Shown here one piece after another: positions 34,551-51,611 of a DNA stretch of 64,000 nt. The notes under the pieces were generated by a model, which had not been told where the DNA came from, did not search any database, and worked only from the letters and a program-made list of their open reading frames with translations. Both the position numbers and the translations under genes were made by a program. Source of the DNA: Bacillota bacterium (GTDB lineage: Bacteria > Bacillota > Sulfobacillia > JAJYWN01 > JAJZPE01); assembly GCA_021787335.1 (NCBI GenBank), contig JAJYMC010000033.1, forward strand, positions 62,001 through 126,000, given 5' to 3'. Position 1 is the stretch's first letter, and each line of letters starts with the position of its first letter.

Positions 34551-34703
34551 AAACCTCTCATCTTCTCAGAACTGGGTGTGTCCCGGAAGCCCGGGCCCAC
34601 TAAGACCACTTCTGCCGGAGTTGGCACCGCTGCGCCGCAGGCGCGACGCCGGTTGCCGAGGAGTCATCAGGCCGGTCCCTCGTCCTTCTCTTCATAAGAG
34701 TGG
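34551..34703 (-). promoter_or_regulatory. SAM-I (S-box) riboswitch
   Basis: The minus strand shows the S-box consensus in order: CTTATGAAGAGAAGG, a GAGGGACCGGCCTGATGA block, CTCGGCAACC, GGTGCCAACTCC and GAAGATGAGAGG. It is preceded by a good promoter and followed by a terminator, and controls the MetE-like gene and metK. Confidence 0.95.
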
Positions 34704-44799: not shown

Positions 44800-45341
44800 A
44801 ACCTCATCCCTCCAAGGCCGCCAAGGGCGTCGTCGGCGTCATCGTCTTGTCCCCCGGTACTTCGCCCTCCCGGTGGGTTTCCCTGCCCGCGACGCAAGAG
44901 CAAGCGTTTGACCAACCGCTCGATCTCCGCCGACAGCTCCTCGGCGGTCTTCCGATAAGTGTCAAGGGATTGCCCGAACGGGTCGGTCACGTCGGCCTTC
45001 TCGCCGGACGTGAACTCCCGCAGAGTGAAGGTCTTCTCGATGGCCCGCGGGACCAGCCGCACGACGCGGTCCCTGTGCCCCGTGGCCATCGTCAGGATGA
45101 GATCGGCCTCCTCGATGGCCTGGCGGTCGAGGCGGCGGGCACGGTGCGGTTCCAGGTCGAGCCCGCGCTCGCGCATGGCCGAGCGGGCATGGGCCGACGC
45201 GCCTTCGCCGGTGAAAGCGTCGGTCCCGGCCGAGGTCACGGTGACGTCGCCCAGGTCGGACTGGGCCAAAGCCGCCCGCGTCAGGGCTTCCGCCATCGGG
45301 CTGCGACAGGTGTTTCCGGAGCACACGTAGAGCAGCTTCAT
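44796..45341 (-). CDS. ywlE: Low-molecular-weight phosphatase, probable protein-arginine phosphatase (YwlE type)
   Basis: A 181-residue member of the LMW-PTP family. The P-loop is C-S-G-N-T-C-R-S; the threonine fifth in the loop is the feature by which YwlE selects phosphoarginine over phosphotyrosine. The general acid aspartate is in V-T-D-P-F-G. YwlE removes phosphate added by McsB and so controls CtsR and ClpCP targeting. The C-terminus carries an extra 25-residue G/D-rich tail. ATG 45341 has AAGGAGA upstream. Assignment to arginine phosphatase rests on the threonine and on ywl synteny. Confidence 0.85.
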   Translation of the reverse strand: MKLLYVCSGNTCRSPMAEALTRAALAQSDLGDVTVTSAGTDAFTGEGASAHARSAMRERGLDLEPHRARRLDRQAIEEADLILTMATGHRDRVVRLVPRAIEKTFTLREFTSGEKADVTDPFGQSLDTYRKTAEELSAEIERLVKRLLLRRGQGNPPGGRSTGGQDDDADDALGGLGGMRF

Positions 45342-45444
45342 AAGTCTCCTTCTGGACCGCGAAGGCCCGGCGGTCACGGCCCATAAATCCTGGCGCAGGG
45401 GGCTGCCGCCTTCAGGCGGCAGAGGAATGCGCTCCTTCCCTCTC

Positions 45445-45475
45445 TTGCCAGTTGTTTACATCGAACATGTATAAT
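45445..45475 (+). promoter_or_regulatory. Plus-strand promoter of the omega-RNA-like locus
   Basis: TTGCCA (45445-45450) and a perfect TATAAT (45470-45475), 19 bases apart. It points away from ywlE and drives no protein gene, only the structured region that follows. Confidence 0.6.
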
Positions 45476-45481
45476 GAGAGC

Positions 45482-45705
45482 CGGCGGATAAGGATTACTC
45501 CGGGAATACGGTTGGTTCCGTCACGGACGAAGCAATCAGAGTTCCAGAGAGGGCGGTGACGTGGCGCACCAACATCCTGCGTAAGGCAGCAGCCTAACGA
45601 AACACATTGGGGCTCGGACGGAGCCTTCGGGGATACGAAGGGGCCAGGGCGTCGTAGATGAACCGAGAAGCCGCCTCGCTTTAGCGGGCGGAGTCGTCAC
45701 TTAAT
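45482..45705 (+). ncRNA. Omega-RNA-like (HEARO/OMEGA) structured RNA, orphan
   Basis: A roughly 220-base structured region in a 385-base gap without a gene. It recalls the guide RNAs of IscB/TnpB transposon nucleases (HEARO in Rfam terms). GTGACG (45556) pairs with CGTCAC (45695), closing a domain with CTGC/GCAG, GGCTC/GAGCC and CTTCG/CGAAG hairpins and then, after GAACCGAGAAG, a 3' hairpin CCGCC-T-CGC-TTTA-GCG-GGCGG ending GAGTCGTCAC, the ending I know from IS200/IS605-type omega-RNAs. Upstream are TCCG/CGGA and GGTTG/CAATC helices. No iscB, isrB or tnpB is present in the window, so it is an orphan or remnant locus. Recognition is by memory of the motif, not by a model search. Confidence 0.7.
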
Positions 45706-45726
45706 GGTAGCCCATCCGAAGGCTGG

Positions 45727-51466: not shown

Positions 51467-51495
51467 GCCGCGTCGTGCTGGTCTTGGTCTTTAGC

Positions 51496-51588
51496 GGCCG
51501 CTTCCCTACGCTGGTATTATCCAGATCAGGTTCGAAGGGTTGGAGGCCAAGCCTCCTTTCAGCTCCATAGAGCACCCCTAGCGGATTC
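51496..51588 (-). promoter_or_regulatory. TPP riboswitch (THI box)
   Basis: The minus strand reads AGGGGTGCTC, then GCTGAAAGGAGG, ACCCTTCGAACCTGATCTGG and ATACCAGCGTAGGGAA, the conserved THI-box blocks in order. It controls thiT-thiN. Confidence 0.96.
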
Positions 51589-51611
51589 GGTCCGGTTCAG
51601 TTGTTGCCTTA

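Follow-up and report, generated by a model that had tools for sequence, protein, structure and literature searches.

A tnpB-deleted IS200/IS605-type element retaining an omega-RNA scaffold between ywlE and ywlC, and a LexA-type dyad in the promoters of its relatives

Elements consisting of little more than the ends of an IS605-type insertion sequence are already known. For example, a PATE-like element of Halanaerobium hydrogeniformans has no open reading frame and is made up of a left end, 58 nt from the 3' terminus of tnpB and the full right end of 160 nt (PMC7290912). The reRNA of ISDra2 of Deinococcus radiodurans, about 150 nt in length, is formed from the 3' end of tnpB and the right end, and takes a guide of about 16 nt from the 3' flank (PMC8612924). 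LexA control is also known for an unrelated insertion sequence, ISCR, whose transposase promoters carry the proteobacterial LexA box CTGT-N8-ACAG, as tested by gel shift and reporter (PMC13393415). The radiation-induced transposition of ISDra2 has been put down to single-stranded DNA, and evidence that expression of the transposase is induced was not found (PMC2806898). In the part of the literature searched, which lay mainly outside subscription papers, no report of LexA control of TnpB or of IS200/IS605 elements was found.

The window, i.e., the whole stretch of 64,000 nucleotides analysed here, has a gap of 385 bases between the minus-strand genes ywlE and ywlC, as a preliminary description of this DNA had recorded. 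Most of this gap is very probably a non-autonomous (PATE/MITE-like) derivative of a tnpB-only IS200/IS605-type element (Table 1). An internal deletion removed the coding sequence between the tnpB start codon and a point some 27 nt short of the stop codon, and both ends of the element as well as its omega-RNA were kept. The likeness to the H. hydrogeniformans element lies in this ends-only make-up, both ends of a tnpA/tnpB element being retained without an open reading frame. That element, however, has 28 nt of the left end and is present in a single copy, whereas here the whole left end is found with its promoter, a single junction is common to two copies, and the RNA shows covariation (PMC7290912). 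The vague 'orphan RNA' thus becomes a precise object, a transposon derivative with a near-complete guide RNA that might exploit the nucleases of its relatives.

Table 1. Positions of the features of the element, its surroundings and a second tnpB family
Feature	Position	Strand	Evidence or remark
ywlE	5' side ends at 45341/45377	minus	
Probable target site/TAM, CCAT	45381..45384	+	presumed role
Whole element, very probably IS200/IS605-type and non-autonomous, tnpB deleted, 316 bp	45385..45700	+	two-block match to tnpB-bearing copies; empty site in G001; exact ends inferred from an 8-copy alignment
Left end and tnpB leader	45385..45567	+	75-87% identity to left ends of C36, C40, C32, C17, C44 and G001 C88
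Left-end hairpin CTGCCGCC-TTCA-GGCGGCAG	45403..45422	+	sequence; kept in other copies
Remnant promoter, TTTACA (45455-45460), 9-nt spacer, TATAAT (45470-45475)	45455..45475	+	half LexA-type dyad CGAAC at 45462-45466
Deletion junction, at which the former tnpB start codon (GCG in place of GTG) meets the tnpB 3' end	45564..45570	+	same in C44
TnpB omega-RNA/reRNA scaffold, last ~27 nt of tnpB and right end	45570..45700	+	alignment, covariance model, covariation
Hairpin GGGCTC-GGACG-GAGCCT	45610..45626	+	loop GACG (45617-45620), proposed partner of CGTC (45695-45698)
GGAGTCGTCAC at the end of the structured RNA	45690..45700	+	the RNA ends in this and a TTTA-loop hairpin
Flank, would-be 16-nt guide TTAATGGTAGCCCATC	45701..45716	+	position by analogy with ISDra2 reRNA (PMC8612924)
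ywlC	46839 to 45727	minus	
Second-family copies	G000 C9:24995, C20:14483, C21:5945, C47:590, C61:449, C8:55586		L070, L072, L073, L079, L082, L069

The gap sequence or its 3' half occurs seven times in the source genome (G000, whose contigs carry C-numbers), and a covariance model of the RNA finds more. BLAST comparison with loci of the same genome resolves the gap into two blocks, of which the first (about 45381-45567) matches the sequence just upstream of tnpB and the second (45570-45700) the sequence from about 27 nt before the tnpB stop through GGAGTCGTCAC. Both blocks are found in the tnpB copies of contigs C36, C40, C32 and C17 and of contig C88 of G001, a genome of the same genus; the copy on C8 matches the right block well and the left block partially. 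In the tnpB-bearing copies the gene occupies the space between the blocks, with TnpB domains immediately 5' of the right block. In the window and on C44, two unrelated genomic sites, the blocks are joined at the identical point. This tnpB-less pair shares 87% identity in the left block and 91% in the right, and its members are sisters in the left-end tree (support 0.79), a grouping absent from the right-end tree. As the two trees weakly disagree, the common junction is the main ground for supposing one deletion and subsequent transposition. The deletion would then have happened once, and the shortened element would have moved by the action of a Y1 transposase (TnpA) in trans.

Homologues of both sites lack the element in relatives. 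In G001 the ywlC-ywlE homology is unbroken and 28 nt stand in place of 332 nt of the window, the sequence being diverged at the joint. Likewise, the C44 flanks, when rejoined, restore an in-frame gene start (ATGGCCGACAAG-ATGGAACTG), and this gene, which reads as a candidate 2-oxoacid oxidoreductase gamma subunit-like gene, is uninterrupted in G002. The motif YCAT lies immediately 5' of all aligned copies if three extra bases (CTT), which are unexplained, are allowed at the C44 left end. The two-block homology and the empty site in G001 bear out the transposon scar that had been one of the readings proposed earlier. Another such reading, a domesticated regulatory RNA or a cis-regulator of the ywlC-ywlE genes, could appeal to the position between two conserved genes and to the conserved fold, but it is very improbable: the element runs on the strand opposite to both genes, it is missing from this site within the same genus and present at the unrelated C44 site, and the conservation of the fold is already explained by the tnpB-bearing relatives.

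Other tnpB-less forms were met with. A second tnpB-less omega-RNA element is carried by G050 on contigs C128 and C168 (L199:1426-1648 and L201; 89% identical over 224 bp), and a similar element is seen in G009 on C74 (L195), nuclease-less derivatives having originated more than once. A decayed remnant without tnpB on C56 of the source genome (C56:20889; L207:1420-1600; 58 bits) has kept the 5' hairpin of the omega-RNA and lost the 3' end.

The plus-strand structured RNA of the preliminary description, with its 3' hairpin of TTTA loop, is real, as judged from its seven occurrences and its covariation. In an alignment of 17 homologues from four genera, 98.4% of the cells are paired and seven pairs have changes on both sides, the structure having been derived from the same alignment, which is a bias in its favour. 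The covariation score was reached by none of 500 shuffles and collapses when the pairing partners are shifted; 33 of the 35 double-change cells sit in helices 4 and 5. The fold consists of the GGGCTC-GGACG-GAGCCT hairpin, a two-level central stem, a 3' hairpin before GAGTCGTCAC, and a proposed GACG/CGTC pseudoknot, for which the evidence is two wobble changes and conservation. With the covariance model (weak matches at C21:72380 and G050:C87 (30 bits) being left out), the window copy reaches 136 bits, within the 133-153 of the full tnpB-linked copies of the genome. The folding energy is unexceptional (z = -0.54 for 45478-45702, plus strand) and not usable as evidence, and the minus-strand value (z = -2.17) was set aside since the homology is to plus-strand tnpB and right end. 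The closing stem GTGACG/CGTCAC described earlier was rejected as not conserved; GTGACG (45556-45561) is part of the old tnpB leader, reads GCGACA in C44 and lies outside the RNA of the tnpB-bearing copies, and the GACG loop is the likelier partner of the 3' CGTC. Elsewhere in the window, a TPP riboswitch (51486-51589, minus strand, 82.5 bits) and a SAM riboswitch (34555-34700, minus strand, 58.6 bits) are present.

As to the class of this RNA, its origin in the tnpB 3' end and the right end, together with a conserved structured scaffold and an ISDra2-like size, points to a TnpB-type omega-RNA and not to HEARO. With 16 nt of flank added, the right block (131 nt) equals the ISDra2 reRNA in size and make-up (PMC8612924). 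Hence the earlier view of an omega-RNA-type RNA lacking its own nuclease gene holds, in the form of a tnpB-deleted element with a TnpB-type scaffold. The likeness to HEARO and IscB did not survive. In general appearance, being compact and structured and having a hairpin at its end, this RNA resembles that class, but a search with the Rfam HEARO model (RF02033), proposed beforehand, gave no match in the window at the gathering score or at E<=10 and none in the whole genome (control genomes were equally without match, so that this is weak evidence alone), and the direct homology to the right ends of tnpB genes contradicts it; the chance of an orphan HEARO or IscB omega-RNA is therefore negligible.

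The absence of tnpB from the 64 kb is confirmed, the lone match on the contig of the window (C55:175047) lying about 49 kb beyond the window end. The further copies to be looked for elsewhere in the genome do exist, both as tnpB-linked right blocks and as 31 TnpB-domain matches. The TnpBs of the family are OrfB_IS605 plus TNB domain proteins, and at least four full-length ones are encoded elsewhere in the genome; the presumed RuvC D/E/D residues (D184, E268, D348) and the zinc-finger cysteines are intact in C36, C32, C17 and C8. Among natural solved structures, the best match of the family TnpB is ISDra2 TnpB, to which chains 8bf8 and 8h1j presumably belong. The C40 TnpB (L044:2856-3899) has lost about 52 residues in frame, including the first RuvC aspartate, while its promoter and omega-RNA are intact; it is probably nuclease-dead, either by decay or as a TldR-like state. 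A full Y1 transposase gene is located on C43, and C38 carries a decayed Y1/TnpB copy with the same right end.

In an intact element, one promoter would give the tnpB mRNA, and the omega-RNA would be processed from its 3' end. Once tnpB is deleted, this promoter would give the omega-RNA directly, with TnpB and TnpA supplied by relatives. Any TnpB of the same family could then load the omega-RNA and cleave the donor site once it is re-joined (CCAT + TTAATGG...), which would favour retention of the element. Unlike ISDra2, tnpB is absent beside the RNA and the apparent TAM is YCAT instead of TTGAT, and binding and cleavage by TnpB are putative here (PMC8612924).

Whether the window copy could be live depends on its promoter and guide. 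The promoter ascribed to it earlier stands in part: TATAAT is present, but the inherited -35 hexamer is just 9 nt off and a sigma-70 scan finds no site in this copy, so that the promoter is crippled and not strong. Eight bases are missing between -35 and -10, leaving half a dyad, and the best alternative -35 is TTGCCA with a 19-nt spacer. By comparison, the C44 copy scores 12/12 in the same scan. A near-consensus sigma-70 promoter is found in C44, C36, C40, C32, C17 and G001 C88, its 17-nt spacer holding GAAC-N4-GTTC; C8 has kept the dyad with poor hexamers. Altogether the dyad occurs in six other family copies of the source genome and two of G001, and is absent from the window copy. As for the guide, no second match was found in the genome at <=2 mismatches, and it matches its own flank only.

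An active orphan omega-RNA, transcribed from this copy, working in trans with the TnpBs of the genome and guarding its own insertion site, is thus possible but unlikely. It would be served by an intact scaffold scoring like the tnpB-linked copies, by four TnpBs whose RuvC and zinc-finger residues are all in place, and by TATAAT with the weak TTGCCA. Against it stand the destroyed spacing of the core promoter with its empty sigma-70 scan, the opposite strand of the flanking genes, owing to which read-through into the omega-RNA is not expected, and the lack of another guide match. The trans-acting guide suggested earlier is accordingly possible insofar as full-length TnpBs are at hand, whereas targets elsewhere in the genome were not found and expression is doubtful. 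Given the broken promoter and a guide that matches its own flank alone, the window copy is most likely a poorly expressed, silent relic. Of the two tnpB-less copies, the one on C44, with consensus promoter and operator, is more likely to provide a live orphan guide.

The locus itself is an ordinary scar, and the interesting part is the SOS-type promoter of the family. The GAAC-N4-GTTC dyad is probably the LexA box of the host; the LexA box of Bacillus subtilis is of a similar type. In the genome, CGAAC-N4-GTTCG is present 20 times and the reversed pattern 2 times, and G000-G003 together (G003 being of the same order) have 59 exact dyads against 18 reversed. The lexA gene of G000 has three one-mismatch boxes upstream and that of G003 two exact boxes; recA is without a box. 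Exact sites are also found ahead of Y-family polymerases (L240, a Pfam assignment; L243 and G000 C28, assigned by similarity; L235, by own reading), of DinB-family genes (L245 from Pfam, L248 from similarity) and of a MATE gene (L247). Within the lineage the motif thus accompanies lexA and further SOS genes and, in the element family, overlaps the core promoter. Since this LexA-type operator lies between -35 and -10, expression of the family is probably SOS-induced.

A hand count in G000-G003 assigns 24 of the 59 exact dyads to IS200/IS605-type genes or remnants of several families, some of them decayed (11 in G000, 2 in G001, 3 in G002 and 8 in G003). The 11 of G000 comprise five of the window family or close relatives and six of a second tnpB family. 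As the 400-nt regions upstream of the 31 tnpB matches make up about 0.35% of G000, 11 of 20 sites at tnpB is far above chance, although copies within a family are related and the independent count is about five families. In G003 the eight sites divide into three at tnpB and five at Y1 transposase loci; transposase sequence is seen at four of the latter (L229, L230, L231 and L234), and the fifth, L232, was assigned through a near-identical promoter. The dyad is inside or overlapping the -35/-10 region in most sites and downstream of -10 in L228/L236.

On balance, these sites favour direct LexA control of the tnpB/tnpA promoters in several separate IS200/IS605-type families, with nuclease, transposase and nuclease-less omega-RNA derivatives such as the C44 copy co-induced by DNA damage. 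LexA would repress tnpB (or tnpA) until damage occurs. As in ISCR, a LexA box overlaps the core promoter of an insertion sequence gene; unlike ISCR, the box is GAAC-N4-GTTC at tnpB/tnpA of IS200/IS605, and the control is a prediction (PMC13393415). If true, RNA-guided transposon retention would be linked transcriptionally to DNA repair, and induction would come at the time when single-stranded DNA and re-joined donor sites are expected to peak.

Among more distant TnpB relatives, GAAC-N4-GTTC was found <=350 nt upstream in 4 of 76 loci (two in the same-genus genome and two in Anaerolineaceae), against no matches for four permuted patterns and an estimated 0.4 or so per pattern by chance, so that the link outside the lineage is weak. 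Two further observations concern the dyad-bearing loci. Several copies of the second tnpB family, whose promoter holds the dyad (e.g., TTGACG-18-TACAAT), are decayed, and the five dyad-bearing Y1 (IS200-type) loci of G003 lie near contig ends.
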